Source: Salminus brasiliensis
Lineage: Eukaryota; Chordata; Actinopteri; Characiformes; Bryconidae
Reading direction: 5' to 3'
DNA: 64,000 nucleotides
Assembly (NCBI RefSeq): GCF_030463535.1
Contig: NC_132894.1
Coordinates: 35,972,025-36,036,024 of the forward strand
Shown here one piece after another: positions 6,422 to 29,973 of this stretch; position 1 is the first letter of the stretch, and every line of letters begins with the position of its first letter. The notes beneath the pieces were generated by a model. It was not told where the DNA came from and did not search any database. It saw only the letters and a program-made list of their open reading frames with translations. The position numbers and the translations under genes are program-made.

Positions 6422-9400
6422 TCAGAACTGATCTGAGAGCAGGTCGCAGAGCCTCTGAGACACGGACTCTCGGCTGGTCCTCAGCGTGAGCCGGTACATC
6501 TGTGGGAGGAGAGAAGAGAGGAGGGGAAGGGGTTAATCTGGTTCGCAGGCGTGTGTACAATAGCTACGCAAATATTACTGCTGTGTTTTACAACACTTTA
6601 CAACACAGTGCTTTGTGGAAAGACATCTACAGCGAGTGTATCTACCTGTAATTAACTATATAACATTAGAATAAACCCAGATAGTAAGATAGTACAGTGT
6701 ATCTAATAGGTCTATCATCGATTTTGAGAAATTAAGATCACTAAATCCCAGTGCTCCCGTACTTACCTGTGCTTGAGTGTTGGGCTCTAGTCTCATAAGA
6801 CAGCCGACCTGTATAGTCTTAGTGTGGATCACTCCAGCGCCCACAAAGTTAGAAGGATTTGGGTCTACTCCATCCAGCAGCGCTGTTCCAAATCCAATGA
6901 TCTACAACACACCAACACGCAAACGTCACCTACAAACACCGCTGCCATGCAGGTAAACTGAGTGTACAGTATTAAAAGCCTGCGCTAGAGAACAATCTGA
7001 GCCCGAGACTACAGCTACCTTAGCTTTCGTGATCTCTGTGTCCATGGAATGCTTGGCTTTGAAGATCTTCTGCACCTCCTGCTGGGGACTGGGGGTAATA
7101 AGAGACATAATGAGAGGTTATATACATCAAACAGTGCACAGACACCAAAATACCCCATGAATGATCGGACTCCGTAATGGAGATGTTGTGTAAACATACA
7201 GTTTCTGAGAACACATGAGATATTAAAAATGCCTCTTTGGATTTGACTTCTTACTAGGGGAGATGTACAGTACATTCAGAAGAAGAACATCAATATGAGA
7301 CACTTTAGTAATGCGTCATTCCACATCCTAAATGTCAAACAGCTCAGGTTTAGTGATAAAAGAGCCTGACTGTGAAGAAGATGCATTGGCACTGAGTCAT
7401 ACTTAACATCTACGACAAGATCTCACTAAATCACGGAAATGACCAACTGTGGCTCATCTGCTTGTGCTGAATGTTTAAAAGGACCGTAATACCAAAAAGT
7501 AGCTTATTTAAGCTGTTATGCAGCTTGTATAATCATCACAGAAAACCAATGACCAACGGAATGGGACTCTCTGGAGCAGCTGTGAGCACATGACCCTAAG
7601 GTCAGCATGCCCAGTGCCAAGTGTAGGCTAGAGGGTATAAACTGTATATATAACTGTGCTATAACTGTGCGCTCTGGAATGATGGATGTGCATGTGTGAA
7701 AGTAATGACACATTAATTGTTGTGCTTTATTTTATTTAGGTATTATTCCAATATATTAAATTGGTCAAATAAACAGGAATTGTGTTTGGAATCTGCAGAA
7801 TATTTATATAGACCCCTGAAATAATGCCATTTGAGTGCTGCTTACGCGCTGAGCTGCTTCCAACGCTGAAAGAAGTCCTGAGACGTCATCTCTGTGGGCT
7901 GGAAGAACTTGTTGAGGGTGACCGGAAGCTTAACAGAGATGTTCTGTGCACTGCCTCCATACCTGTAGAGCAGCAGACATAGCTTTAGAGCTACAGGCAA
8001 CGTTTGTTGAAGTCTGGCTGTCTGTCTGGCTGAATAACTGTCTGGCTGTCTGGCTGTCTGGCTAACTGGCTGGCTGGTTGTCTAACTATTTGGCTGGCTG
8101 ATTGTCTAACTATTTGGCTGGCTGATTGTCTATCTATCTATCTATCTGTCTATCTATCTTTCAGCACTGTACTCTTTACTGCAGGTACCTACACTGAATT
8201 TCTGGGCTGATAATAATGAACCAATGCAGATACTCTCGTTTCTGTGTGGTTTGGAATAGCAGTGAATTCAACATTGGGCCTACATTTTTCAGAAAGTAAA
8301 AAAAAATAAAATAAATAAAAACCAGCCCAATAACTTTGAGTACAAAAGGCTGAACAGCCACATCAGGCTGGATACTTTCATTTTGGAACCACTAGTTTTC
8401 TGTCTGCTTTTCTTGTTTCACCTGATCTGATAGCCATATGGATCCACATACTAGTCAACTCTGCCTGTATATACTGAGATTATAAGATACAGATCAGGCA
8501 GAACCAAAGACACAAGACAGCAAAGGAAGATTTATTGGGTCTCATTTATGTTGTGTGGGTGTTTGGCTGTAAACACTATATGATTATTTCTAAAAGGCCA
8601 AATCTTAATAATTCAATTTCCACATTTATCAGTGAATAAACCAGCCACAGAAACATAAGGCATTTTTGGTAAAATCAGGGGAGTCTGATCCACACAAGAA
8701 AAAACAGAACACACCAGGGATGCCGCAGAAATTCAGAATATCTAAAGAGCCATCAAAGTAAACAATAGGATCAGTTAGGATTACAGTCTCATACTGGAGA
8801 ACCACAAGATGCATGAGCGCTATACCCCACCAGGAGTGGAGAACCTGCAGCCGTCTATAGACCAGAGAAGAAGCACAGACACAGAACCCAAAGACAGCAC
8901 AAAGCAAAGCTCCTCGACTATGATATTAAAAAACACTGATAGACATCTCCAACAACTCGGCTCTGCTCATATCCGTTTAATCAAACTGACTTTTCTAGAA
9001 TAGTTTTCACCCACCTGAAGTGAATATTAAGCACTGGTGCTTCCACAAAGTCAGACAAGCACTCGATGTTGAGGATCTGCTGAAGCTGGGCTCCTCCGTC
9101 CACCACAGGGTCAGCATCCTTTGTGTGAACATTCAGCTGTGAAGGCGCCATTAAGGACAACTGCAGTGGGTTTAGTGGTATTTATTTATGAAACCCTACA
9201 CTCCTCGACTATCGGTCAAAAGTTTTAGAACACCCCCAGTGTTTTCAGTACTTCACTGGCAGCCTGCATTTCTCATTTAACTATGTTAGAACTGCCCAGT
9301 CCACCAGCAGTCAAACCTGCAGCTCCAGGTCGTCTGCTCTTCACAGCTGAAACTCAGACTTGCTCCGTAGTTAAGCTGCTGAGCTACGAGGTGTGGTCAT

Positions 9401-12400
9401 GTGAGCTGCTGTTGACTCTCAGAACCTGGTCTGCTGATGCAGCTGTGTGGATCTGAGTGTGTCAGACCTTTTAGACCTTTTCCTGTAGCCAACCTCTTCA
9501 GTCTTTTCCAGTTTCCGAGAGTCTCCTGATGGTGAAACTCTGAATCTGAAGGGAAGAGCTTCTCTAAAGGGAAGAGCTCCACTGTGAAGAGTTAGAATGA
9601 TCTAACTGTGTTTATACAGATAAAAGAAAAATTTAATGTGAAAAATTTAATTTCCTTCCATTAATACAGAACAGTTGGAAGCGGTTAACCAATGACTTCC
9701 CTAAAAGGGTCCACATTATATATATATTTTTTTTGTTGTTGTTTGTTTGTTTGTTTTTTAAGTTTTCTCATTTATTGCCTTAAAATCTCTGACAAGTCAT
9801 GGCTTTGTAGCATTTGCTGTCACTGGACTTTGTACCGTTGTAAGTTTCTTCACTGGACCTGAAGTGCTGGTGGTGTACTGGTGGTGTTCTAAAACTTTTG
9901 ACCAGTAGTGCATGAGTCAGTACAGTTCAGGCTTCGGTTTGGTTGCAGTACGGATGTTTCCGCGCTGTGGACTTCACTTTACACAATGCTTTATTAGCTT
10001 GTCAGACCGGACTTGTCAGTATGTGGTAACTCTGTGGAAAGCTCTTGTGAAGGATATGAGAACTGAGCGGTTCGTGGCAGACCACGGAGGATGAAAAATT
10101 CAGGAACTGTGTCGACGTTTTGTTTCCATAGAACACGTACATGCGGCCTGCAGCGGGGCGGACGCACAGAAAGAGGAAATTAGAAACGCTGTTGCACCAT
10201 TTAAAACCGTCCAGATAAAAGATCCAGCTCTGAGGCTCTTACCCAGGTTCTGTCTGAACTCAGACTTCAGGCCTATCTGCAGCAGCTGATTCTCAAACAA
10301 AACTCCGTTATTCTTACAGACAAACCTGAAAGAAGACAACAGCGTTAAACTGGTACACTGTTCTAGACGTCACAGTTCATCTCAGACGATTAAAACAAAA
10401 AGACTTCAAAACATGATAAAAATCAACATCACAGTTTGTGGAAAATATAAATCATTATACCAGCCATCGTATCGTCCTTTAGGGGATTTATACAACCAGT
10501 CTTACGTGTCCTTTCACTTGAAAACTGGACAGGATTATCAGATTACAGCCTGTTTAACCTAATGCAATCATTTGAATGTGCTTATTTAATAATTTAATAC
10601 AATAAAATACTGTTAATGCTGCAGAAAATCTAATATTTTGGGTGGTTTTACGTCTGATTTATAAACGGTTAAATATGCCACCAATTTCACATTATATTTA
10701 CTATAGATTTCTTTCTTTTTAAAAAATATTAATTTACTTTTTCCACTTTTTCTCCCAATATGGTTCTGCCAATGAACCCACCCGCTCGTAGCTCCCCCTA
10801 GCACTAGCACTAGGAGGGTAAGGACTGAACACACGTGAAACAGCCTTACATGCTGCAGGTCCCCGCTCTGACGGTGTCCTGTGGTATCAGGTACCAAAGC
10901 CACGACAGTCATAAAATTACTGCCACTTTATCGTTGGTACAGGGTGGAGAAGTACCTTGAGAAGTTTTCCTCAATAATAGGTGGAGAAGCCGTCCCCAAA
11001 GGTGCTACAGGCAGGCTTTCTGAGAACACGTCCACCAGCAGGCTGGCTGCGTTGGAGGCGGCTGGAGGACTAGCCGAGTTTACCACGGAGGTGTTCCCCA
11101 GGCCCAGAAGATCAGAAGACGGTGAAGAAGTAACCTGGACACAAAATAAATAAATAAATAATTTAAATTTAATGTCACCAATACACTATAAGGACAAAAG
11201 TATTAGGACACACCTCCTAATTACTGATTGATTCAGTCTCATTGCCACAGGTGTATAAAGTCAAGCCTCTGGTCATGCAGTCTGTCTTTCTTCCACACAT
11301 CAATGAAAGAACGGGAGGTTCTAAAGAGCTCACTGAACTCCAGCGTGGTTCTGTATGTAATAGGAGACACCGCTGCACCAACAACAACAAGTCAGCTGGT
11401 GAAATTTAGACCTTCCCTCCTAGATCTTCCTCCATCAGCTGTGAGTGGTGTTATTATTGAACAGTGGAAGAGTTTAGGAGGAACAGCTCACAGAGAGCAG
11501 CTCAGCCACAGAGGGTCTGTCAGACCACGTAAACATCAAATAGTCTATCACACTTTGATTATGAGTTCCTAAACTTCTGCGTGCAGCTTCACTGAACTTA
11601 GACCCACCTTAAACATTATCAAATTATTATGGAGACACAGCCAAGCGATTAGCCATGCATCACACCAAAACACACACGGACGCACCGGGACCTGGTAGAA
11701 GGGGGCAGTGGGCGTGACAGTGTGAACTGTGTAAGCCTTCGGTGATAAGGGGGTGAGGGGCATGTGCGGCATGGAGGTGGAAGGGATGGGGCGTGGCCTG
11801 TTGGTGGGGGGCGGGGCTGTAGCCAATAGGTCACAAACAAAAGAGGGAGGAGAGGACTGAAGAACAAAGGGAAAAGAAGAACAGAGAGGTGAAAAGTGAA
11901 AGGAGCAGAGAAGGTTACAGATGTTTATTCTAACCTCTTCTAATGAGAGAGCTCAGCTGAGAAACACCCACTGCTGACAAAGACATCACAGAGAGTTTAC
12001 AGACAGTGTAATCTCCAAAGCAAAGCACTACCCAATAGAACGGGGTGCTCTAGAGCAGCCGTGTCTCTGTGATCGATGCCAGGCGTGGGCTAGAGGGGTA
12101 TAAAGCCCCCCAGCATTGAGCTGTGGAGCAGTGGGATAACTACGTTCTCTGGAATGATGGTGGTGGAGCTCCATCCAGTACTTTTGTTAAAGTCGAGTTG
12201 AAGCTTAATAACTACACATTCAACATCAATACCTGACCTCACTGATAGGGCTGGCCGATATGGTAAAAATACTATATCACGATATTTAAAGACATGATAT
12301 TTATCACAATACATGTAATCACAGACTAAAAACATCAGTAGCAGCAAACTACTAAACTGTACTGAATACAGTGATTTATTACTCAACATCTGCTGCTCTT

Positions 12401-15400
12401 CATCTAATGAACCCTTCAGTCTAATTACACTGTTAGTAATGAAACCTGCAGCTGATCAGTGTTTATTAGCACTAACAGTCTCCTCCATATGATTAGAGAA
12501 GCTTATTATTATCACCATAACAAAATATATCACAATATGGTAAAATATCCTCATATTGCCCAGCTCTACTCACTGAATGCAATCACATTCTCCTCACAGC
12601 AATGTTCACAGCAAGCCTTCCCAGAGGGGTGGAGGCTGTAACTGCAGCAAAGGAGGACAAACCCTCTGTTGAGACCCTTGATTTTAGAAGAAATTCTTAG
12701 TTTAGAACAAAACTTAGTTCATTTAATCAGTTCTTTATTAAATGAAATCAGGTGAGCTGCCGTCGGAAATCCACACAAATCCATCCTCTTTCAGCTTCAC
12801 ATCTAATTATATTTTCCGTCGAGACATAATCGAATTTGTGGTGTCACAAGGACTCAAAGCAACATATAGAAATCACATGAGCATCAAAGTATAAGGTCTG
12901 TTCTGCACACAACCTTACAAAGGCTTCCAAAAACAGCAACATGGCATCACAGCTCTATCCTCTCTGGACTATGGCGACTTTATGGACGTGCACGGTTCAG
13001 CTGATGGACTCGGATCACTGTCCATCATCCGGTTCATTATTGATAAGCTATAATAATAATCACTCTGAGCTCTAAGCTAAGTTGGATGAGCATCTGTGTC
13101 AGCGAGGTGGGATAACTGCCGGAGTTTATTTTATCTACAAATCCTAAATAAATGCCTCCCTACATTACTGCAGTGCTGACTGTTAATAAGAGTGCTGTTT
13201 CTGCTGAGCCTGGAATGTGAAGCTGGGCAATATGATGACATTTTATCATATCGTGATCAATTTTGATACTGAGATACACAGTAAGCTTTCAATCATATGG
13301 AGGAGACTGTTAGTGCTAATAAACACTGATCAGCTGCAGGTTTCATTACTAACAGTGTAATTAGACTGAAGGGTTCATTAGATGAAGAGCAGCAGATGTT
13401 GAATATAAATCACTGTATTCAGTACAGGAGAGGATCTGAATAGTAGCTTATAAGAATCTGTCGCTACTGATGTGTTTAGTCTGTGATTACATGTATTGTG
13501 ATAAATATCGTGAAACATGTCTTCTACACACTTTTTTTGTGTATTGTCTGTAAATAAACACTGCTTGTATATGGTTTCGTACTACAGGCCAATAAATAGG
13601 ATTGTAAAGTTCTAAAGCATTTGTTTTTATTGATTGTGTTCTGTTTTATTCAGATATATTAAAAATGAGTTTAAAAAGGTTGAAAGAATGAATGAATGAA
13701 TAAATGAATAAATGAATGAATGAATGGCCAGAGAAGTAAGCCCACCTTAGTGCTTGTGTTAGCAATGGTGTGATCGTTGCTACCATTGACGTTGACGTTA
13801 ACATTGGCGTTGGCGTTGCGCTCTTTGCGACTGTCTTCCATATCAGACACAGTTCCTGAACCTTTCTTCTTCTTCAGTTTTGCCAAGATGGAAGATTCTC
13901 GTTCAGGGAAAGGGGGCATCTCCTCCAGAACTGTGGCCTTTCAGAATTACAGGACAGATAAATACAAAACACACAGTTCTGTACATCTTAGTTAAATATC
14001 TTCTTATGGTTCGAATTAGTCAGGAACACAATTTAGCTTTTTCATTTAGTTATTTGTTTAAAAATTGTAATGTAATTCTGCTGTTTGTATTGTTTATGTT
14101 CATGTTTATGTAATCATTAAACTAATCAATAGCTACAGTTCTAATAATGACTTAAGAGAATAGTGTGCCTCTTTTTTACCTTGTGAGTTCATGTTTGTGC
14201 TCATACACAGAACAATTCACCACAACACATCATTTAAAACACTAAATTGTTGTTTTTCTGTTATTTCCCATCTATATTTAATGATTTTCCCACCTCTAAA
14301 ACACTTCCTAAGGTTTGATGACATCACTATGCTCTATTAGGTGAGGCAAAATAACATTAATAACAACATAATAATAATAATAATAATAATACAAATTAAA
14401 ATAATAACAACAATAATAATAAGCCTTTATTGTCAATTCTTCTTTTCACATAGCTTAGAAAGCCAGTGTTTGAGCTCAGGGTCAGCTATGCTACAGCTTC
14501 CCCTGGAGCAGAGAGGGTTAAGGACCTAACAGTAGCACCTGGGTACTGAACCCACAATCTTGTGATCACCACCGCACCATATTAACCAATATTATTACGT
14601 CTCATATCCACCTACGTTCACCCAGCACCCATTACGGACAGGAAATTAGATAGCTCAGGGTGTGACACTTACAAATATGTCTCAGTACAGAACATTTGAA
14701 AAAAGACACATTTTAAACAGGTACCAGTATATCTGTGCTGGCGATGCAGCTCAGACGCAGATACTCCACGGCCCGCTGCTGAAGCTCCACGTCTGCGTTT
14801 CTCAGCTGACTGTCCGAGCGCAGCACTTCTTGTATGGTGCCTTTCACTTCTGGGAAGAGGTTGATGAACTTGACGTAAGCCGAGAGCAGCAGAGCCCGAG
14901 TGGGAACCGAACACAGGTGGAATTTGGAGTGGAGGAGGTTGAACTGTATGAGTGGACTGAAAGAGAGGGGAAGATTTTAAACGAGGCCAGTCCAGTTACT
15001 CACTGCAAAAAATGGCATCTTAGTAAGTGAAGTAAGTGAAACCTTCTTAAATCAAAGCTAATTATTTGACATTTCATTTTTACATTGTTGTAGGAATAAT
15101 GTAGGACAATTTCACCAATAAAAAATAAAAAAAAAATAAATAAATCACTGGCAGATCATTTTGCTTGTTTCAAGCATTATGTCTTGACCTAAGCTGTCTG
15201 TTATATAATGAATTAAGCAATTAGATAAAAAAGCTAAGATAGATAAGTGTTATTTTTAGTGATATATAAGATCACTAAAAATAAGTTAATAAACCACATA
15301 ATACTCCAACAATAATCTCAAAATAAAACATTATATATTGTCATATGACTTATATAGTGCTGAAAAGGACAGTGATGCTCCCAGCAGAAGGTAAACGAGG

Positions 15401-16272
15401 AAAAGGATGAATAAGCCACATCCAGCATCCAAAGGATCTAGTGGTCAGAACTGACGTCAGCACTTGTTGCCTTCGGACAGAGCTTTATATGCCAAATAAC
15501 TGCAGCTACACCTCCATTAAAGGTCTGCAGGAGCTACAGAGAGGGACTTATTTCACTGACGTATTTCAGAAGCATTTACACACCTGGATCGAGGATCTCC
15601 TGCAATGAGGTTTCCAAACTCGCCCAGGATGTATCCTCCAACCTTCACCAGGTTTTCATGACAGGCTGGAGCCTGCAGTGCCTGAGAAAGAGAGGAAGGA
15701 CAAAAAAGACAAATGAACCTCTGGTTAAAGCAGCACAGGACAGCACAGTTTAGAGGTGCTTAGAGGTGTTTTCTACATTTTGTTCTCCTGTAATGAGCAA
15801 GCCATTTCAGAGTTCAGTGAAGTGTCAGGGAGAGTCATTACAGACCTATTCAACTCGTGAAGAGGCTCATGTTCAGCTGATGAGTACAATCAGGTTCATT
15901 ATAGTGGAGATAAAGCTGAAGTGTGGGAGTCTGGCCTTCTAAAATTAGAGCTGATCTGCCCTGATCTACAGCAGCAGACCTAACAGTCAGACTGGACAAT
16001 TGTACTGGGAACAGCAATCAACACCACAGCAACCTCTCCATCATTGTATATGCTTCATATTAGGACTATAAATAGATTGTAATTAGTGTGCAGACTATAT
16101 TATAGAAGGAGTATGAATTAATGAATAATAATGATGTAAAACATTTATTGAGAATCAATTTGTCAAACCTAATAAAAGCAAATTCATCAATTTTCATGTA
16201 AAACAGGCAACATTTTTCAGGTAATGTCATGTCCAGTGTTGTTTACAATTAGAACCAATATATCCTGGCTGC

Positions 16273-16322
<50 letters not shown>

Positions 16323-19300
16323 TTACACTACAATATAAAGTCTAATCTTTTTATTCCACTTATAAATAATTTGAAATACAATACCAGTCAAATAATCCTA
16401 ATATGATAATAATTAAACTGAGGGAAAAAAGCCATGTAGCAGCTTCACACATTATAAATCTAGGCCCAGTGGGACAGTTGTGGAGTGCAGGTCTTACCTC
16501 AAACACCGTTTTGGCAGCGTAGCCCTGCACGTCGTCCCTGTTGATGACGATCTGAATGACTCTGTACCAAACCTCCTCACTCACGTAGTCTCCAGCAATC
16601 CGGATCAGGTTCAGGATGGTGTCTACGTACCAGGTGTAGTCCACTGCGTACTTCTCTGCCAGGATGGCCACTTTCAGGACCTTTTTTAGGAAAAGCAGCT
16701 TTTAAAAAAACAGTCCAGCTGTATTTACCCACTTCTGCCACTTCTGCAGTTTACAGTCCATCAGCTAAAAACAATTACCTTAATGTACAGTTAATAAAAA
16801 GTAAGTCAACCATTTGGAATTGTCTGGATCTCTGCATTAATTACTAATAAACTGTGGTCTGTTGTTAGTGCTGTGTACTGGCATACGGTATGTATCACAA
16901 TACAGGGGTTAGATTCAGTATATGACGACATACTGAAATACTGTATACTGCCCTGAGGCAGCAACGCAGCCCCAATCAATGATGCTCCCCCCACCATGCT
17001 TCACATTTGGGATGAGGTTTTGGTGTGCAGTGTGTTCTTTTTCCTTTTAAATTTGTGCTAAAAGTAGCACTATCATTCTCATCTGTCTCCCAGAAGCATC
17101 ATTGACCATCCAGGTGGTCTTGGTCAAACCAGCACAGCTCCTTCCATGTATACCATTCTTGTTCAATGTTTATGTACAGTTTGTAGAGTCTCCTCCAGGT
17201 CTTTTGCTGTTCTTCCAGCTCGTTCAGGATTTTGTTGCGCAATATGAAGCAATATACTTTTTAATAAGCATATTCATCAGACTAGAACACTCACTGACTG
17301 CATCTCTTGTTACAAACAGCCAAATTAATCCTGTTCAACTGGATGTACTAGAGCACTGTACTAATGCAATAAGCCATGAGAGGCCAGGCGTTACTGCGAT
17401 GTTATCACGGAGAAGGGTGTTTTTAGCACGACATCTAAAATCACTTCCCAGAGATAATGCTTTTATAATTCGGCAGTGAACATAAAACATGACAAAATAC
17501 ACCAATGTTCAAGACAAGACAAGCATATTCACCATTTGGAATTGAGCTTCCACCTGTAACCCATCTGTGCACACACACATACACACCAGTAATACACACA
17601 CAGTGGACAGTGTGTGAGCACATGTGCCCGGAGTGGTGGGCAGCCATTGGTGTCCGGGGAGCAGAGAGAGGGTGAAGGGTTCTACTTGACTTTTATAAGC
17701 CGGCAAGCGACAGAAGCTGCCGTGTGTGTCAGCAGGTGGCAGTCAGAGATGATGTGCAAGAAGACGACACGCCAGGATAACAATCAGGTTATCTTAAACC
17801 CACAATCAGCTTTTTCAGAGCAACGGAAATTCAACAGAGCTCTGCATAAACAGACCACGGCATAAATAACGCTACTGTTTGAGTGCAGGTACCTCAAAGA
17901 CTCTGTGCAGGTCCACTGATTGCAAAAGCAAGTTACTGTTAAACATGGGAGAAGAGCAAGCTGACTAGATCACCAACCACCAAAACAAAATTCACTGAGT
18001 GTTTAGCTGTAAAGATAAAACTAGAGATACACACAATATGTCCAAATGTTTGTGGACACCCTTTTGATAAATGCATTCAGCATAAATTCATTGCACCCAT
18101 TGCTGACACAGATGTGCAAATGCACACACACAGCTTGTCTACTTCCTATTACAATGTAATAGGAAGTCTAATGCCAGGCAGGGGCTAGAAGGGTATAAAG
18201 CCCCCAGCTCCTAGAGGAGCTGTGGAGCAGTGGAGGAACTGTGTTCTCTGGAGTGATGGATGGTGGAGCCCCATCCAGTACTTTAGTTTGGGGTGAGTTG
18301 GGGACTCGGGTATGATGAGATGGGGTGGTGATCTTCATCCAACATCCTGACCTCTTGGAGTGGAATGCGATCAAATTCTCACTGCAATGTTCCTCCAAAA
18401 TGTAGTAGAAAGCCTTCGAAATACACTTAATTTTGGAGAAAACAATGAATGAGCAGGTGTCCCAATACTTGTGTCCATATTGTGTACATTGATACATTAA
18501 TATAGAGATGTTAAAGTGCTCCCACTGCTGACACAGGTGTACAGACACAGCTGTATAATCTCCAAAGAAAAGCACTGACCAATAGAACGGGACACTCTGG
18601 TCACTGTGCCTAATGCAGAGCGTGGTCTAGATAGGTATAAAGCCCCCCGAGCATTGGGTTTTGAGGTTCTCTAGAGTGATCATGGCGCTGATGATGGTGT
18701 TGGGCTTGTTAGACTCCACACAGCTTCCAGGACAAATAGAGGCTGTTACTGAAGCAAAAGGGGACAAACTTACAGGTAATGCCCTTGATTCCAGAATAAA
18801 TGTTGGAGTCCACAAAGTTTTGCCCACAGGTGATGAGGGACCAGAAGGAAAGTTCTAGTCAAGTTCTGTCACAGAACAAACTGAAAAATGGCAGTGAGGA
18901 GGAGGAGAAGGAGGAGAAGGGGGAGGAGGAGGGGGAGGACCATGACGGCAGACTTACGATTTCCTCTCTGATCGAGTAGTCGGCTGTTTCTAGGTAGCTG
19001 AGCATCTCTGCGACAATCTGCTTGGCATTGCTGCGGTCACACATGGCGTAGAGCAGGTCAACAGCACGCTGCCTCACACTCACGTCCCGTTCAGTCTGAA
19101 GGGCACACACACAAAAAAAGTATAAAATATAAAGATTTAGACCAATTATAGAGATTCTGTAAACAGCAGCAGCAACAAGAACATAGTAACGACAGAAACT
19201 GAACAGGGGCTGATTGGATTCTAGCTTACTGTATTCATCATTTTGTAAGAACATGATTTATTGATTTACACTTCTAATCGTCGTCTTTTTAAAGGGCCCA

Positions 19301-22300
19301 TATCATACAGAAACCTCATTTTCTTCAGTTTACTGAAACAAAAGTGTTTGAAGCAGTATCTAATCACTTTGTTGAGCTTTTGAACCCTGGTTTTATATAC
19401 TGTTAATAATCATAATGCAGAAATTACTATGAATTACTTGGTAACAGATTAATACGTTTTATCCCACAGGGTTCTATTTTAGGGTCTATGAAACTGATGT
19501 TAATCACGAGAGTATTGCCGTTATGAGGGTGAACAACTGAAGGGTAAGCCTATGTACAGGTTTATAAAAAGTCATAGCTCCAAAACACACCATCACCTCC
19601 TAAACAGGAAAACATTTAGCTTTGATGTCAATGTGTTTGTGATGTCACAAAAACGATAACATTTTCATACAGCATGTCCACTCATTCAGCCTATAGCAGC
19701 GCAGCCCTGTCCACTCTGAAGGTATATGAAGTGTTTTTGTTGTAAATGCATTTTATGGGAAGGCATTCCAGCGCAGCCAATTAGTACAGAAGTCATTTAC
19801 ATAAACCAGTCTTAAAGGGGAGTTTCTCATGCATAACCACATTTATTTCAGATCCATTCCTGTGTTCTCCATACACATGATTCCTTTTGCCTTCCACTCC
19901 ATTCCTCAGGTAGGTCCTGAAGGGCCTGAGACCTGCCTGATCACAGAGACTGTGAGAAATCACGGCTAGCAGTGGAGGAGGAGTGTTTACCTTCAGAGCA
20001 TTGATTACAGTCTCGATGTGTGTTTTGACTGCCTCGTGGGAGAATTCTGAACTGGCGAGGGTGCACATGCTCTCCAAGGCCAGGTAGCGCAGATTAGTCT
20101 CTCTGTGCTGCAAGAACTGTCCCAACTGATTACACGCACGGACCAGCAGCGTCGGCTCACTGAGGGAAAGAGAGTGAGAGGGAGGAAGAGAAACAAGGAC
20201 AAATTCGCTTATTAATTAGACTATTTTAAACAGTTATGAACATAAATTCCAAGACTAAGAGCATTATATCACTGGTTTCTGCAAATTCTATTAGTTTCAT
20301 GCGCAAGAAGAAAAGTCTATTTACAGATAGCTAATATGACAATATGAAACAACATATAAACATGAAAACACCAAACATGAACACCAATAATCATGATAAA
20401 AACGGTAAAAACGGCCTTTAGCATGGAGATGCTATAATGCTATAATAATGTTAGTAACCTAAAATGACTTTATTTAAAGAGAACTGGTTAAAAGTAACAA
20501 AATTAAGAATGAATTAATATGACCCAACATGCATATCGCAATCAACAATACTAGCTACCACGCTGATTTTAACATTTTCACCATAATAACCAAATATTAG
20601 TAAGTAAAAACCTGTTTCACTTAAACTGATCGTTTAAATGTTTGGCCATATACATTTATAGTACACAATATTATTAATTATCATTATATATTTTAGGTAC
20701 AGCGCTTTAAAATCAGCATCAGTTATTATTCAGAAATGTCCCATTCCTGATTTTTGCCCCCAATATGATCATTCTTAACTCTGGAGGCCACAAGGTGCTC
20801 TGCTAGAACACAGTGGTAAAAACAAAGGATCGGAACTGGCTCAGGCTTAAACTAGCTGATAACTGACGAGTTAGAACATGACTGGATCAAGATATCTTGG
20901 TTTCAGTTCGACCAGCACTGAGATGAGGCTTAATGTCTGCACAGTTTCAGCTTGGGAACTGCAAACCTGTCATGGTGTATGATGAGACTGATGGCTTCGA
21001 ACAGTACTGCATTCTTGGCATTGGAGTGCTGAACTTTCTTGGACTTTGGAGGCTCTTGTGCTTTGTTCAGAATTGTTTCCAGGCACTCAGTCAGGCGTCC
21101 TCGGATCGCTGCATCCTCTGAATATAAAAACCACAAAAGCACGGAAAACCAAACGTCAGTGGTTATATAAAAATACATTAAAAAGCAGATTATGACAGTT
21201 ACACCACAGGCAGCAGTTAATGAGATCCAACAGCGAACCAGGCATTAGTCATACCACCTGTAGAGTGCTTCACAATATCAATAATAAATTACCTGTAGCA
21301 CATTAAGGTTACTACAAACAGCAACATACAGCATCAGTGCTGCATTTAATCACTAGATTACATCAGAAATCACTACACTAGTTGTTTGGATGGCAAGACT
21401 GCAGTAAGAGACTGTATGATCTCACTCAGCAGGATGTGTCTACTGAATGACTCATTCTACTGAGACTCCAATGAAGTGTCTGTGATTGGGAGCTGTCTGC
21501 TTTTCCCCCCCAAATATAGCAGCCAGCATTGATTGTAGGACACAGGCACAATCAGGAGCTCGTCCAAATACACAGCCCTTCAGCCAATAAACCCTTTGAG
21601 CCCATTAGCAATGTGGAACATTCTGTTTTATCATCATTATCGTCTTTAATTAAGCAGCTCTACCAGTGGCGATGCTGACAGTTGGTCCCAGCGAGCATCC
21701 TGGCACAGTGAAACACAGCCTGAAAGCTTTTACAAAAAGTTTATTTTTTAGGGATGAATTAGACTGCAATATTTCCTTACAGGCATAAAAGCAAAGCTTC
21801 TGCTAAAATATTATTTTACCCTGTGTACATACCCCATAACGAATATACACATGAGGTAGCCACATGTCCTACTAACACACCTACAATCATATTTGTTCCT
21901 ACCTGGTGGCGGGTAACACTGCAGTAGGCGGAGCAACTTGACTGACAGCCACGGCGCAGCAACAAAATAATAAGTGTAGTCCTGCAGGTCAGTGGAGGCT
22001 GATGTGACGATCTGAGAACGCAAACACAACAAAACACTGATTTTATCTGGAAAAAAAAACCTACAAGACTGTGCTCCACACAATAAAGCCTCTAAAACCA
22101 CAAGTGGCATCATTTCTTATTACTACTATATTCATATGTTCCTGTTCCTGTTAATAGAAGAATGTTCTATTAAAATGTTGATGTCAAAAATGTTGGGCTG
22201 CACTAGGCTCCTGTTTCAGCTGCAGATCTGCCCATTGAAAATGAAGCATTTCAGTAATATCAGCTCTATTAAAGGAGCGTCTCTGTGCTCTACTGAGCAT

Positions 22301-25300
22301 TAACATGAGCTTCATGGAGGAAAATATGAGGAGTCGTTGTCTAGAAGATTTGTAAAGCTGCAGAAAGTCAGACTTCAGAGGCGTGTGATCAATAAGCTTT
22401 ATTGGAATATAAATGTGGGGCTCAGTCGGGACGTTTCACTGCAGCTCTCTTGAGTCTCTGCCACGGACACAGTCTTCATACTGGACTACAGACGTCTGCT
22501 GTGAGCTCGCTGGAGAGTGACGGGACGTGTGCAGGTGTGATGGATCTCTTATAAACCAATAGGGCGTCAGAATGGTGTCTGTTTATACTTCTCATCCAAT
22601 CAGGATCAGACTCTCACTTTCCGGATGGAGAGATTTATCTGGAGAGGGTTTTTATTGATGACGAGCCGGAATGAAAACAAAGGGGAATGAAATAGGAGGA
22701 ACGAGGCTGTTTTTAAAATGTAAGGAGTAGAAAGTTCAGATAATTGGGTGAAAATGTAAGAAGTAGAAGTAAAAAGTCTGAAAAATACATAATTACTCCA
22801 GTAAAGTTCAGATAACCAACATTTCTACTTGTATTTCATTACTTGACACCTCTGCAGCTTATAAACTAGCTGAAATAACAACTATTGTTCAGTTTTCACT
22901 TCTATCAGAAAGTGCAGTCTCCCACACACATTGGAAATCTGTTTATATTCTGGCTCATATTTTGCCTCAGGTCTTCTTCCAAAGTCTATCAATAAAGCCA
23001 GCGGACTGGCAGCTCATTAGCCTTATTCCCGTTGCAGCCAGACGGGTTTGTTTTGAAGCGAGGACAAGATAAACACTACAAATTGGTCTTTTGGCAAAAT
23101 GTGTGTAAAGCAGAACAATTGTGAAGTCTTGTGAAGTTAGACTTCAAATAATTATGTGCATCCATCAGACCCCATTTTATAAACCCCTGCAAATCTGAAT
23201 GTCTGTGCCTGCTCGGTCAGACATATGGCATATGTAGGAAAGCGCAGCTACAACACCCTTTAACCTGTTTAACCTGCAGAATATGCTGCTTTGGTTCGGT
23301 TTAAACGACAAAATTACATAACTACCTAGTTACATAATGTATGTAATTACATAATTGATTACAGCAGCTGTCAAATTACACTGATTTCATTCCTATTGAA
23401 TATACAAATATAACAGAAAGGACTGTACATGCAACAATAATTTTATCAAATTCGTATTAAACTTATTACATTAGGGAGATTAAAGCCTGAAGCCCTGTTT
23501 AGAGTGACAGTCTTACCCTGCTGAGTCTGGCCACAGCCAGAGAAACCGAGGTCTTGAAGTCGTCTGGGTTTTTCTGGGCCAGGGTGATGATGAGGCTGGT
23601 GGCAGCAGTGACCACTCCCTGTGAGAAGCACAGAAGCACATCCTTCTATTACTGCAGTCAAACAATAATGTCCTCTTTTACAATAAAACAATGGGCTTAG
23701 AACATTTCTACTGATCAGAAAGATTATTGATTATAGATAACATTAGATTTATCACTGCTATGTGTTATACAGCAGAACTGAAGCTGTACCAGGTGCTGAT
23801 CATTGAGAAGGTGGACGACACGTGAAGTCCACTCCCCCATAGGGATGAGGTCTGGAGAGGTCCGGTTGAGCCGTAATAAACACAGTGCTGCACTCTGCTT
23901 CACACTGTCCATCGTGTCCCTGGAAAACCCACACAAACAGAGGGTTCTTACTCATTAAAACCACTCAGCAACACCCCATCAACCACCCGGTACACCGTAA
24001 TAAACAAATAGCAACAGGAATGGCATAGCAAATGGTTAGCAACCTAATAATCAAGTAACAACCCTTGCAACCACCTGGAGATACACCAACCAACCAACCA
24101 ACTGGTTAGCAACACCCTAGCAACCACCTAGAAACAGTTCAGGCTGCATAATAATTCTGAAGTCTTCAGGAATGTCCAACCTTTCCTTATCCTTTATTCT
24201 TTATACAACTTCTAACTTCAGTGTGAGTGGGTGGAGCTAGACTGACGTAGGCTGATATCACGGACACAGTGAATTCATAAGGCAGCTTAGTTTCCGAATC
24301 TAACAAACTAGAGCATTTCCAACTGTTCAGTAGTTCTACAGTTATCATGTCAAACCTCTCTTACCCCGCCACCAGGATGCGTGGCACTTCTGATGCGAAT
24401 GCCTCTGCCATCTCCCTGCTGCCAACGTTAGCAATGCAGTGCAGGGCGAGGTTCATGAAGGTGGGGTTTCTGCTGGACAGGTCGTTCTTTATGGCGTTGT
24501 TGATCAGTCTGATCAGATCGCTGTTACTGTTCACCAGCACGGAGATGAACAGATAGCCCTGGAAAAACACCAGAAAGGTCAGATACACTAAAAGGTGGAA
24601 ACCAGTGCAGCACACAAAGTGGTTTGATTGTTATGGTTCAGGTCAGTCTATAATTACTAGGGCTGTGTGATGGCAAGAACTTGATGATACTGTGATGTAT
24701 CACGATACAGTAAACAGGGCGATATTGTTTTTTTTTTTTTTTAATTTTAGGAAAACTGTCATAGTATGAAAAAAACAAACAAAAAAAAAACCACACCACC
24801 ATCTGTATGAAGTCTGAGTCCAATCAGAACAGCGGGATCTAAAGACAGTGTACAACACTGCTCTCTAGTGGTTGAGGTTTAAACACAACACAGAATGAAC
24901 CACTGTCTGCCACCAATCCTTGCACATGAGCTATTAATATTAGTCCTGCACAGTATATATATCGTTTCAGCAACACTCCCACAATGTGCACGTGTTCAAT
25001 ATTCAGGTAAGGCAAATTAAATAACTTTTTTTGCTGCTTGATAGGAAAGGAAAAAGTCACACTCGGCACATCGACTGGGTGGATTATAACTGTCCGGGTT
25101 AATTTATTTGACTCCCATCTTGGATAGACTAAGTGCATTATTAATATCATCATGTTGGATCACTGACTTCTGGTAAAATAACTTTTTCTTTTATATTTTA
25201 AATATTGCAATATAAATTGCAGAAATAAATATCGCAACCTTAGTTTTCCAACATTGTGCAATTAATATCAACTTATATTGTATATCTAAATAATTTGTAA

Positions 25301-28300
25301 TATCTAATTATACAGTTCAAGATTATATAAAATATATGTAATAATTATATTATTATTAATATAAACTGTGTTTGAGAATTGACAGTATTGCAAAACCTAA
25401 TATTGCACTACTTCAATCTATTGAATCGCCCTGACCTCTTACTTTCTGATTAATTATCTAAATACTCAGAAGATTACACAGTACTTAGACTTATTTACAC
25501 AAATTTACACTGTATAGTGTGAATAAGAACGAATTCCTTATGAAATTACGTAGTTATGAAGACAACAGCAGTAGTAAAACAGTGTTGATGTTATATACAG
25601 TGTCGTGCAAAGAGTAGCACTATGATATATTTCTACATATCAACAGTAATGTACAACACATCTTATAACTAACTGACTGACTGACAGCTCTATCAACCGG
25701 GGGCAGATCCCACATGAACTCTGTGATTAAGATGCCAGGGCTTCATTTTCAGTCGCAAACAAACAAGCTCAGACATGCAAACTATCCCTGCAGCACTTAC
25801 TATCTGCTTCTCTGTGTATTTGTTGGAGCTGAGGAGGTTGACTGCCTCCATGTGGCCGAAGTCGATGTCGTGGCCCAGCAGGAAAATGAAGAGCAGCTTA
25901 CAGACGTACTTCTTCTTACTGTAGCCATCCAGAGCTTTATCTCCTGAAACACATCAGAGCAGAGAGCAGCGGATGTTAACACACAGCGTGATCGAGGTAA
26001 ACTGAGCTCAGCACACTTCGCTCACATTGTGCGGGATGTAGACTGGACTAACATCCTTTAATAGATCTCTGAGGGTCTGGAGCTCTGCTGCAGTTACTGA
26101 GTCAGTTGGAGGCTTCTCTGCACTCTGCTCTGAGCTCAGCACTCGGCCCTGACCCCGCTCTGTAACTTTACGTGGTCTGACAGACCCTCGGTGGACGCTG
26201 AGCTGCTCTCTGTGAGCTGTTCCTCCTAAACTCTTCCACTGTTCAATAATAACACCACTCACAGCTGATGGAGGAAGATCTAGGAGGGAAGGTCTAAATT
26301 TCACCAGCTGACTTGTTGTTGTTGGTGCAGCGGTGTCTCCTATTACATACAGAACCACGCTGGAGTTCAGTGAGCTCTTCAGAACCTCCCGTTCTTTCAC
26401 TGATGTGTGGAGGAAAGACAGACTGCATGACCAGAGGCTTGACTTTATACAGCTGTGCTGATGAGACTGAATCAGACACCTGGATTCAGTGATTAGGAGG
26501 TGTGTCCCAATGCTTTTGAAAGATTTGCTCATTTAATTACCTGCCTGTACGCAGATATCTGCTGTGGTAAATCAGCTGCCTTTTGAGTTGGTTTGTGTTA
26601 TTCCTGACAGTTACTGTATTTATAAAACGACATTAACTCACAAAAGAGTCTAAACGCTGTTTGTTTTACAAAAACTAAGTGGTGTAATAAAAGAAATCAA
26701 TCTATCTATTAATCAATCAATAAATCAATCAGTAGGACTAGACACCGAAGCGATGCTTTGTTATTAAGTCCAGTGTGAAAAGCAGCAAGTCAGTAAATAA
26801 TGAATGGATCTAAACTGAAGGGAAGTGAAGAGGAGAAAGGTAGGGCTGATGGAGATGAGTCAGCAGCAGCAGGCAGGAAGTAAATACCAGCACTTTCTTC
26901 CCATGGGGAGAAAACAAGCGGGCCAGCCATCACTGCATCTGACTCACACTGCCTGGAACAGTGTTTTACTGCGAAAAGCAAGTCAATCAGAAAACAATCA
27001 GCAGGAAAACCAGGGTCAGGAAAACTGACTGATTCTACGACTGGATGAATCTGAGCACATCTAATCCATCGCCTGAGTAATGCAGAGCAGCAGGACTGTC
27101 ACAGCGAACTGATTAAACCCAACCACTACTTCAGCCCATATTTACTAGGAGTGTAACAACACACAGTACTGCACTGTAAAATACACACAGGCATCAAGAA
27201 ACACTGTCAACCACCTGGTCCTGGTCCAAATACGCCTTTTAAAGATGAGGGAAAAACATTGATTATCTTAATCTACAGCGGATCCGGTCAAGATGTGGAT
27301 CTACATATTAGGCAGTGAGTGAACAGTCAGTTCTTAGGTGATGAAGGTGATGAAGCAGGAAAAATGGACAAGCTTAAGAATCTGAGACACTTTGACCAGA
27401 AGAACCAGACTGTGATGTTCTAGACGAGTTAGACTGAGTCAGAACATCTCCAGAACATCAGCAAGCAGGTCTTGTGGGGTGTTCCTTCCCAGTATATGCA
27501 GTGGTCAGTACCTACCTAAAGTGCTCCAAGGGAGGACAACTAGTGTACCCGCGACAGGGTCATGGGAGCCCAAGACTCCATTAATGCTCATGAAGGCCCC
27601 GCCCACCTCATAACTTACAGGATCTGCTGCTAATGTCTGAAGGTGTCCAGATACCACAGCACACCTCCAGAGGTCTTGTGGAGTTTATGCCTCAAATGGT
27701 CAGAAAATTAGTGTCTGAGGTTGTATGTAAAATATCTGAACAGAAACATAAGCTTTGACTTACCTTTAAACTTGGAGCGAATATTGGCCAACTCTTTGTT
27801 TATTCTTTTGATCTCCGCCTCCTTACTTTTACCTGTGAATACAGACAGAGCGCATTTACAACGTGCTTTAATATCAGGACTGACAAGCAGAGCTGGGCAA
27901 TACGATGATATTTTATAGTATCGTGATAAATTTTGTTATCGTGATAATAATAATAATCTTTTCTAATCATATGGAGGAGACTGTTAATGTTAATAAACAC
28001 TGATCAGCTGCAGGTTTCATTACTAACAGTGTAATTAGACTGAAGGGTTCATTAGATGAAGAGCAGCAGATGTTGAGTATAAACCACTGTATTCAGTACA
28101 GGAGAAGATCTGAGTAGTAGATTATAAGAATCTGTATAGACTTTTATAGAATCATGTATCGAGAAAATGTCTTTAAATATCGTGATTTTTAGTATTTGTA
28201 CCATATCACCCAGCCTTACTGGCAAGAGGTCATTTGCAGCCTGTAAAAGGCTTTATTTTCATCTGCTGGTTACGACAACACAGGATACAGCATGCCCAGC

Positions 28301-29973
28301 TAGCGTTGATGATTACTAACAGGTAGTACTGACACGTGTCTCAGCTAAAGGACGAGGGAGGCCCTAAATTAAACACAGAGAATAATGGCAATAAATAACT
28401 TCCTTGTTTCTCTCGTTTTGTGGTAAACTCTATTCAGAGACGTTCCTCAAATCAACCACCGCTGAGTTTGATCTAGGCTTGGATCATCACAGGCAGTCTG
28501 CAGATTCGCTGTGATCAGAGCTGGGCAATATGACGATATTTTATTGTATTGTGATAAATGTTGTTATGGTGATAATAATAATAATCTTCTCTAATCATAT
28601 GGAGGAGACTGTTAGTGCTAATAAACACTGATCAGCTGCAGGTTTCATTACTAACAGTGTAATTAGACTGAAGGGTTCATTAGATGAAGAGCAGCAGATG
28701 TTGAGTATAAATCACTGTATTCAGTACAGGAGAGGATCTGAATAGTAGCTTATAAGAGTCTTCTGTTACTGATGTTTCTAGTCTGTGATTGTGTATCACA
28801 AAAATAAAAATAATTTTTACCATATCGCCCAGCCCTATGCTAAATAAACCATTGTTGTTGAACATAATAAAATCATTATTATTATTATTATATATATTAT
28901 AACTATTCTTATTCTAAACATGGGAAAAAGGGATATACAAGACTAGCAACACATCTACAACACATCTCCAGCAACATTTCCTCAAAACTAGTGTTGCATT
29001 TTCAGGTGGACTACAGGCCTGGAGATGATAAACACACCATATATAAAAGATGCAGAACTTTGAACAGGATTCCTATAAGTATATAATAGAAATCTGAATG
29101 ATCGGTGTTGGTATAATTAATATAATTATGCCTGCTGTAGGATCCTCTGCACGAATCAGAGATTTCAATAAGGAATGTTGGAATTCTGTTTCATTCTGGT
29201 TAATAGGTTTAGTAATAATGATGTTATTATTATTATTATTATAATAATTATATTCAGCTGCCAGTTGCAGTTCAGTAACACAAACAAAATAACATAACTA
29301 ATATATATTATAACAGAGGTATTATAAAGCACTACAGGAGTAACCATGTCCTGATGCTGTCCATGTCCTCCAGCTTTCTTCAAGTCTGTTAGGCAGGAGT
29401 TTGGAGGTCTGGATCGAGGTTGGGTGGGTGGTTGGGTGGGTGGCAGGTTCTGGCCCCTCTGTGCTAGGGGTGGGAGCAGCTGTGTTACAGGGGCTGCTGT
29501 CTGACAGAAGTGCTGTTAAGTTATATGATTTATTACTGTGATAAATCATATAACTGTAAAATGACTGAGTCGAAGTAAATGTCGTGCATTCAGTCCAGTT
29601 CTGGTCCGGTTCGGTTCGGTCATCAGCTAAACTGAACGGGCTCCGCTGTCGGTCTGTAGCCACACCTATAGAGCCGCTACTGCACTCCCTCACACTGAAC
29701 CACAGCTTGGGCTGGTGTTTATGTGTTCATCTCGCTGTTATCCGTGTTATTAGTGAATATTATCCCTAATATCAGTTTAATAACTGCAGCTTTACAAGCT
29801 CACAGCAGGCTGCCTGGCTAGCTCTGGCTCAGTTCGCCCCTAGCCTAGCTTCATTAGCTGGAGCCACCTAGCGGGAATAACCACCGCCCTCAGTAAAACC
29901 ACTCACAGTTTCTAATGTCCGAGATGAAGACGGCCAGTCCGCGCATCCCGTCCCCTTTAGACACCGCCGGCAT
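6422..29973 (-). CDS. ap2a2: AP-2 clathrin adaptor complex subunit alpha (alpha-adaptin), complete, 22 coding exons
   Basis: This is the large alpha subunit of the AP-2 heterotetramer, which binds PtdIns(4,5)P2, cargo signals, clathrin and accessory proteins at the plasma membrane during endocytosis. Coding exons in minus-strand order are 29907-29973, 27764-27832, 25801-25943, 24365-24558, 23790-23919, 23517-23618, 21903-22011, 20967-21117, 19991-20159, 18958-19095, 16498-16680, 15584-15681, 14725-14956, 13746-13937, 10956-11134, 10243-10325, 10058-10147, 9015-9138, 7846-7962, 7019-7088, 6767-6901 and 6422-6499. The phases agree throughout and sum to 2853 nt (950 residues plus stop), close to the usual ~940. 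The ATG at 29973 follows an in-frame-compatible context (CCACCGAAATG) and opens with the family start [13 protein letters not shown]; the end is LCDLLSDQF-stop. Introns are GT-AG except intron 17 (AT-AC). The donor of exon 8 (GTTTGC) is weak. The alpha-2 rather than alpha-1 assignment rests mainly on the mucin neighbour, so the family is near certain and the paralogue less so. Reading 5.3-6.4 kb I saw no minus-strand AATAAA. Confidence 0.95.
7480..7720 (-). mobile_element. MITE family A, diverged copy (ap2a2 intron 19)
   Basis: Carries a diverged form of the family-A core (GGCTAGAGGGTATAAA, reverse of the CCTCTAGCC block seen at 31020-31340). Ends not identified. Confidence 0.55.
8010..8162. 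repeat. CTGG/CTGT/CTAT tetranucleotide-rich tract
   Basis: Composite simple repeat drifting from TCTGGCTG units to AACTATTTGGCTGGCTGATT 23-bp units and finally TATC tetranucleotides, in ap2a2 intron 18. Confidence 0.85.
9139..10057 (-). other. ap2a2: Putative U12-type AT-AC intron (ap2a2 intron 17)
   Basis: On the minus strand the exon ends TCTC and the intron opens ATATCCTTC (ATATCCTT at 10057-10050), the consensus 5' site of AT-AC introns removed by the minor spliceosome. Near the 3' end is TCCTTAAT (9157-9150), matching the U12 branch-point consensus, followed about 11 nt later by AC (9140-9139). Splicing there gives TCT-C|AG-CTG, reading [11 protein letters not shown], aligned in length and content with other alpha-adaptins. 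No GT-AG choice preserves both frame and length: the nearest GT (10063) shifts the frame. A Tc1-like MITE (9206-9911) fills most of the intron, close to the branch site. Confidence 0.82.
9206..9911. mobile_element. Non-autonomous Tc1-like element inside the AT-AC intron
   Basis: Terminal inverted repeats GGTCAAAAGTTTTAGAACAC (from 9214) and its reverse complement (ending ~9902) bound ~700 bp. The interior on the minus strand has only traces of a transposase-like frame ([12 protein letters not shown]). It sits 50 bp beyond the U12 branch-point motif. Confidence 0.75.
11190..11575 (+). mobile_element. Tc1-like element fragment with transposase N-terminus (ap2a2 intron 14)
   Basis: Begins with a TIR-like ACACTATAAGGACAAAAGTA. 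Broken frames give [17 protein letters not shown] and, after shifts, a [19 protein letters not shown] stretch, corresponding to the paired-type HTH DNA-binding region of Tc1 transposases. The catalytic region is absent. A close copy lies at 26005-26535 in reverse. Confidence 0.75.
12000..12200 (-). mobile_element. MITE family A copy (ap2a2 intron 14)
   Basis: Minus-strand match to the family-A core: AGGCGTGGGCTAGAGGGGTA, then TATAAAGCCCCCCAGCATTG. It abuts a family-B MITE immediately downstream. Confidence 0.75.
12246..12568 (-). mobile_element. MITE family B, full-length copy (ap2a2 intron 14)
   Basis: Bounded by AGGGCTGGCCGATATGGTAA and its imperfect inverse ATATTGCCCAGCTCT. The interior matches 13219-13530, 27891-28217 and 28519-28835, including the block ACACTGATCAGCTGCAGGTT. 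About 320 bp, no coding content. Confidence 0.8.
13219..13530 (+). mobile_element. MITE family B copy (ap2a2 intron 14)
   Basis: Starts AAGCTGGGCAATATGATG and shares the ACTGATCAGCTGCAGGTT core. The right terminus decays after GATAAATATCGTG. It forms an inverted pair with the copy at 12246-12568, 650 bp away. Confidence 0.8.
14456..14580 (-). mobile_element. SINE fragment (ap2a2 intron 13)
   Basis: Reverse-strand tRNA-like region with GGGTACTGAACCCACAATCT (B-box like) next to a body resembling the 40405-40695 SINE. Diverged. Confidence 0.5.
16274..16320. repeat. AT microsatellite (ap2a2 intron 11)
   Basis: About 23 uninterrupted AT units. Confidence 0.95.
17545..17690 (-). mobile_element. 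SINE fragment (ap2a2 intron 10)
   Basis: Reverse-strand copy of the SINE body: ACCCATCTGTGCACACACAC, then GTGGTGGGCAGCCATTGG and GGGGAGCAGAGAGAGGGTGA. The tRNA head is absent. Confidence 0.7.
18033..18485 (-). mobile_element. MITE family A, full-length copy with terminal inverted repeats (ap2a2 intron 10)
   Basis: Ends ACAATATGTCCAAATGTTTG and (reverse) ACAATATGGACACAAGTATT are inverted repeats of ~28 bp that both finish GGACACC or GGGACACC inward. The interior carries the TATAAAGCCCCC block. This copy defines the family boundaries; termini of this type are common in Tc1-like elements. Confidence 0.8.
18512..18685 (-). mobile_element. MITE family A, partial copy directly after the full one
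   Basis: Repeats the interior (GTATAAAGCCCCCCGAGCAT) 30 bp beyond the end of the full copy and lacks the right terminus. Confidence 0.7.
19270..19800. other. Possible old dispersed element in ap2a2 intron 9
   Basis: The GGGCCCATATCATACAGAAA start resembles ends of abundant teleost non-autonomous elements, but I could not find a matching inverted end. No coding potential. Confidence 0.3.
20203..20940. other. ap2a2 intron 8, no feature seen
   Basis: AT-rich intron sequence without repeats, hairpins or open frames that I could support. Confidence 0.5.
22012..23516. other. ap2a2 intron 6, no gene
   Basis: Mostly unique AT-rich intron DNA. 22390-22600 is more GC-rich and resembles dispersed repeat sequence (CACTGCAGCTCTCTTGAGTC), but a second copy was not found in the window. 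Confidence 0.4.
23955..24125. repeat. Degenerate CAACCACC/AGCAACA repeat (ap2a2 intron 4)
   Basis: Loose alternation of GCAACACCCTAGCAACCACC-like phrases, with a short CAAC run near 24089. Confidence 0.6.
26005..26535 (-). mobile_element. Tc1-like element fragment (ap2a2 intron 2)
   Basis: Reverse-strand relative of 11190-11575. The frame extends further here, through [20 protein letters not shown], the GRPRK linker of Tc1 transposases. Frame-broken and lacking the catalytic domain. Confidence 0.75.
27290..27720 (+). mobile_element. Tc1-like transposase remnant (ap2a2 intron 2)
   Basis: ATGGACAAGCTTAAGAATCT followed by GACACTTTGACCAGAAGAAC is the start of a Tc1-like transposase frame, and GTCTTGTGGGGTGTTCCTTC belongs to its HTH region. 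It stops before any catalytic motif. An inverted copy lies at 35185-35410. It ends ~40 bp before exon 2. Confidence 0.7.
27891..28217 (+). mobile_element. MITE family B copy (ap2a2 intron 1)
   Basis: AGAGCTGGGCAATACGATG to ATATCACCCAGCCTTAC, with the shared ACACTGATCAGCTGCAGG core. First of two direct copies 628 bp apart. Confidence 0.8.
28519..28835 (+). mobile_element. MITE family B, best-preserved copy (ap2a2 intron 1)
   Basis: AGCTGGGCAATATGACGATA at the left and CCATATCGCCCAGCCCT at the right form clear terminal inverted repeats. Confidence 0.82.
29519..29555. other. Perfect 15-bp hairpin near the ap2a2 promoter (intron 1)
   Basis: AGTTATATGATTTAT (29519-29533), loop TACTGTG, then the exact inverse ATAAATCATATAACT (29541-29555). 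Confidence 0.7.

Follow-up and report, generated by a model that had tools for sequence, protein, structure and literature searches.

Does an intron within the ear of the alpha-adaptin gene of Salminus brasiliensis belong to the rare class that runs from AT to AC and is removed by the minor spliceosome? This question is raised by intron 17 of an ap2a2-like gene lying on the minus strand of the window, that is, the whole stretch of 64,000 nucleotides analysed here. The earlier note, made from the sequence alone, had proposed that the sequence coding for the alpha-adaptin ear is interrupted at positions 9139..10057 by a U12-type AT-AC intron, and this proposal is now supported by the splice signals themselves, by a paralogue in the same genome, by a U6atac gene and by a homologous human intron. 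We put the probability at about 0.97 that this is a conserved U12-type AT-AC intron of the alpha-adaptin appendage (ear) that would be cut out by the minor spliceosome.

Signals and gene context of intron 17

The alpha-adaptin coding span was modelled at 6422..29973 (minus strand) as 22 exons encoding 950 aa, separated by 20 GT-AG introns and one AT-AC intron. The model was built by tblastn and choice of splice sites with an alpha-adaptin protein as the guide, and its check against database sequences covers 100 aa of the ear. Intron 17, the sole AT-AC intron among the 21, is 919 nt long, in phase 1, and lies 57 residues past the start of the ear motif FVCKNNG. Both protein alignment and the gene model place exon 17, which encodes the N-terminal part of the ear, at 10058..10147 and exon 18 at 9015..9138 (both minus strand). 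Read along the minus strand, the boundary from exon 17 into the intron is TCTC|ATATCCTTC (10057), with CACGAACCGCTCAGTTCTC as the end of the exon and ATATCCTTCACAAG as the first bases beyond it, while exon 18 is opened by TCCTTAATGGCGCCTTCAC|AG (9139), with AGCTGAATGTTCACAC as its start and GTTGTCCTTAATGGCGCCTTCAC directly before it. The join keeps phase and gives one reading frame across exons 17 and 18.

All three signals that had been noticed, a U12 donor, a branch-like motif and a terminal AC, were found as placed. The 5' splice site ATATCCTT occupies intron bases 1-8 (10050..10057, minus strand), the branch site TCCTTAAT lies at 9150..9157 (minus strand) with 12 nt from the branch A to the intron end, and the 3' splice site AC is read at the edge of exon 18 (9139..9140, minus strand). 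Compared with the U12-type AT-AC consensus printed in PMC2831892 (ATATCCTT donor, TCCTTAAC branch, AC end), the intron agrees at 8/8 donor, 7/8 branch and 2/2 terminal positions. It therefore resembles U12-type AT-AC introns in general in donor, branch and AC as given there, and its branch site falls inside the stretch from -55 to -5 in which intronIC is described as scanning for branch sites (PMC7367187). Nothing notable sets it apart from that class; a putative inverted-repeat element occupies most of it. Within the gene, its donor has one mismatch in nine positions to the U12 consensus, against three to seven in the 19 other introns compared (intron 20 left out). The branch motif alone is not unique to intron 17, and intron 10 carries a site with 2/9 mismatches as well, although just 4 nt from its end.

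Taken singly, neither the donor nor the branch motif is remarkable, because their counts in the window are at chance level: ATATCCTT was seen twice against 2.7 expected, and TCCTTRAY with AC 5-16 nt downstream once against 7.0 expected. Their joint placement is another matter. In a first-order Markov simulation with the composition of window positions 8001-12000, the probability of having a U12 donor together with a U12 branch and end at the two homology-set junctions of an intron was about 4e-5 (within ±15 nt, at any of the 21 introns). The coincidence of the motifs with two junctions set by protein homology is not due to chance.

A 100-aa stretch from exons 16-18 matches solved alpha-adaptin ears end to end and without gaps (best PDB match 1b9k, 6.9e-50); seven of the nine sequences listed for this stretch are adaptins and the remaining two are weak recA entries. 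The Pfam domain Alpha_adaptinC2 spans the junction, scoring 50.3 bits (cut-off 27.6). An additional exon within 9139..10057 was considered and rejected: the length of the family leaves no room for one, and because the ear match is gapless there is none for a constitutive exon, though an alternative, skipped exon may lie between 9139 and 10057.

Whether the gene is ap2a1 or ap2a2 had been left undecided, and identity over the ear favours the latter. The window gene is identical to A2 at 185/231 residues and to A1 at 169/231, whereas a second alpha-adaptin on contig C12 is identical to A1 at 185/231 and to A2 at 173/231, in both cases with provisional references, of which the stretch of the A2 ear aligned to solved ears is the part taken from a database sequence. 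Judged by these identities, the window gene is ap2a2-like and the C12 gene ap2a1-like.

The window also holds a mucin-like gene of the gel-forming type at 61391-64000 and 53648-54187 (both plus strand), with five Mucin2_WxxW stretches, TTTP-rich spacers and an upstream TIL-like match under the Pfam cut-off. The presence of this gene and ap2a2 in one window is reminiscent of human chromosome 11, where AP2A2, MUC6 and MUC2 are neighbours.

Homologous introns and the minor-splicing machinery

A comparison with the homologous intron of other alpha-adaptin genes, which had been proposed as a check, was made within the source assembly (1.07 Gb, 103 contigs). Searching this genome with the ear protein at E up to 0.01 returned 14 matches, seven to the window gene and seven to the one alpha-adaptin on C12, whose ear matches 1b9k over residues 1 to 231. 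At the matching codon this ap2a1-like gene has an AT-AC U12 intron of 663 nt in phase 1 (C12:35722304-35722966; locus L022, 3304-3966), so that such an intron was found at the homologous position in 1/1 paralogue of the genome. It reads C|ATATCCTTT...GTCCTTAACTGAACCCAC|AG, followed by CTG, with codon and phase as in the window intron, and the five other ear introns of the C12 gene, of which the ear alone was modelled, are GT-AG. The two introns are alike in the ATATCCTT donor, the TCCTTAAC branch, the AC end, the codon and phase 1, but differ in length (663 against 919 nt) and in the distance from branch A to end (10 against 12 nt). At the C12 locus, too, motif counts are at chance, with one RTATCCTT against 0.77 expected and two TCCTTRAY against 1.49 expected.

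Outside the signals the two introns have little in common. Their first nine bases are identical at 8/9 positions and the following 51 at just 10/51, and their interiors align like shuffled sequence, with a best local score of 14 compared with a mean of 12.1 and a maximum of 16 in 50 shuffles. Signals preserved inside a diverged intron are the pattern that would be expected of selection for minor splicing.

The genome also encodes a component of the minor spliceosome. A 46-nt U6atac probe matched contig C18 with no mismatches, and a full-length U6atac snRNA gene is present there (locus L023, 1499-1627; Rfam U6atac, 134.7 bits, model positions 1-126 of 126). This locus carries AAGGA at positions 12-16, which is complementary to TCCTT of the donor, and other short complementary stretches occur in it as well, one of them at position 41. 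No U12 snRNA gene came out of a non-exhaustive Rfam search of the genome, in which 44 of 48,180 candidates were scored and the search's own control went undetected, nor did a 38-nt U12 probe match the genome with up to three mismatches allowed.

The earlier note had also asked whether the intron is already catalogued in ap2a genes, and for AP2A1 it is. In PMC2603472 (2008), exons 19-20 of human AP2A1 were chosen as flanking a U12 intron, marked 'AT/AG', from a database cited as Levine and Durbin 2001. The ratio of spliced to unspliced intron 19, determined by real-time PCR, was 36 in controls and 29 in PRPF8-mutant lines, a difference that was not significant (PMC2603472). The exon-exon primers given in this source translate as SVQFQN and LAVQTK. 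The first has its counterpart in the window in STQFLN, which exon 17 encodes at some distance before the junction, and the second in LNVHTK, which exon 18 encodes immediately after it. Since the primer translations match exons 17 and 18, the homologous human intron is evidently known and its splicing has been assayed. Human intron 19 shares with the window intron the gene family, homologous flanking exons, the U12 class and an AT donor, and differs in its AT/AG ends as reported in PMC2603472 and in belonging to paralogue a1 rather than to an a2-like gene. In the literature, as covered by the searches made (for the wider ones, among the matches listed), no paper was found that treats the AP2A2 intron as minor or U12-type; AP2A1 and U12 also occur together, once each, in PMC5854442, and a shared U12-type intron is named in AP4 epsilon in PMC9120149, the accessible part of which has no mention of AP2A. 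The class and the position of the intron are already known; it is real and conserved and comes as little surprise. The gain is correspondingly small, since introns of this class, and the one in human AP2A1, are already in the literature.

Alternative joins between exons 17 and 18

Joins from exon 17 to exon 18 were tabulated with GT-AG, GC-AG, AT-AC and AT-AG ends, and 46 of them are in frame, free of stops and 84 to 115 aa long; the comparison below covers the six that score best overall and the eight best with GT-AG or GC-AG ends. The AT-AC join (99 aa) has an alignment score of 406. The earlier note had claimed that the frame is kept only when the intron is spliced AT-AC; the AT-AC join is indeed in frame, but so, equally, is an AT-AG join with both edges moved by 2 nt. 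Nor did the further claim stand that no GT-AG join fits both phase and family length: GT-AG joins near that length exist at 10085..9161 (97 aa, donor GTGGTCTGC), 10082..9161 (98 aa, donor GTCTGCCAC) and 10012..9094 (99 aa, donor GTCCGGTCT), although they align worse, scoring 377, 375 and 342, respectively, among the eight best GT-AG and GC-AG joins. The top GT-AG join among these eight, which adds 16 residues, was rejected with a score of 381 against 406 for AT-AC.

The alternative closest to the AT-AC reading is a U12-type intron with AT-AG ends: its donor would lie at CAT|ATCCTT (10055) and its acceptor at CACAG|CTG (9137), and the junction codon would specify H rather than Q. This shifted join (10055..9137) reads SSHLNVHTK, is of equal length and in frame and scores 407 against 406, and human AP2A1 intron 19 is itself recorded as AT/AG in PMC2603472. 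However, the shifted donor ATCCTTCAC does not fit the U12 type and puts the nearly invariant ATATCCTT out of register with the consensus as printed in PMC2831892, and AT-AC is the better-scoring join of the C12 paralogue (258, against 253 for AT-AG). AT-AC ends are therefore preferred, because the shifted join loses the register of the U12 donor and the paralogue favours AT-AC, and we regard AT-AG splicing of the window intron as very improbable.

It is just as improbable, though compatible with the AT-AC reading, that the signals are real but sit in an unexpressed copy, for instance a decaying duplicate, given that the 22 modelled exons together read 950 aa without interruption and that all 21 introns end in GT-AG or AT-AC. 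Least probable of all, and next to negligible, is the use of a nearby U2-type GT-AG junction with the U12-like signals arising by chance: in-frame GT-AG joins of about the right length (97, 98 and 99 aa) do exist and the donor and branch motifs are individually at chance level in the window, but these joins score well below the AT-AC join and the U12 signals recur at exactly the matching place in the C12 paralogue.

Splicing, origin and consequence of the AT-AC intron

With the AT-AC ends, the donor ATATCCTT would be recognised by U11 and then by U6atac, the branch TCCTTAAT would be recognised by U12, and the AC 12 nt past the branch A would serve as the 3' splice site. This order of snRNA recognition at the donor is established for the U12 class. 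When intron 17 was retained in silico, 18 intron-coded residues were added and translation stopped after residue 794 of 950, so that retention would lose residues 777-950, most of the ear. Because the retained intron stops translation early, full-length alpha-adaptin would need minor splicing, and dependence of the ear on it is a sound deduction from the sequence. These results support the view that a minor-class intron divides the appendage of a core endocytosis gene, so that a failure of minor splicing would be predicted to deprive alpha-adaptin of its ear.

The intron is most likely older than the duplication that gave AP2A1 and AP2A2, because the C12 paralogue shares its codon and phase and the U12 intron of human AP2A1 is homologous; its presence in both paralogues likewise suggests an origin before their split. 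Whether a single ancient U12 intron has since moved its edges, so that both paralogues here have it in phase 1 with AT-AC ends and human AP2A1 has it with AT/AG ends, is a more speculative matter, and we consider it rather unlikely. If it were so, donor and acceptor would have moved together by two bases with the glutamine codon kept, a rare traceable switch of intron termini.

The interior of the window intron contains a putative non-autonomous DNA transposon of 718 bp at 9200..9917 (no strand assigned), bounded by 41-nt inverted arms that are 85% complementary. With this element inside it, most of the 919 nt of intron 17 appear to have been inserted. Elsewhere in the window, the 3' element of a UnaL2 LINE at 53095-53148 (minus strand, 55.6 bits) is the sole Rfam match above the gathering score.
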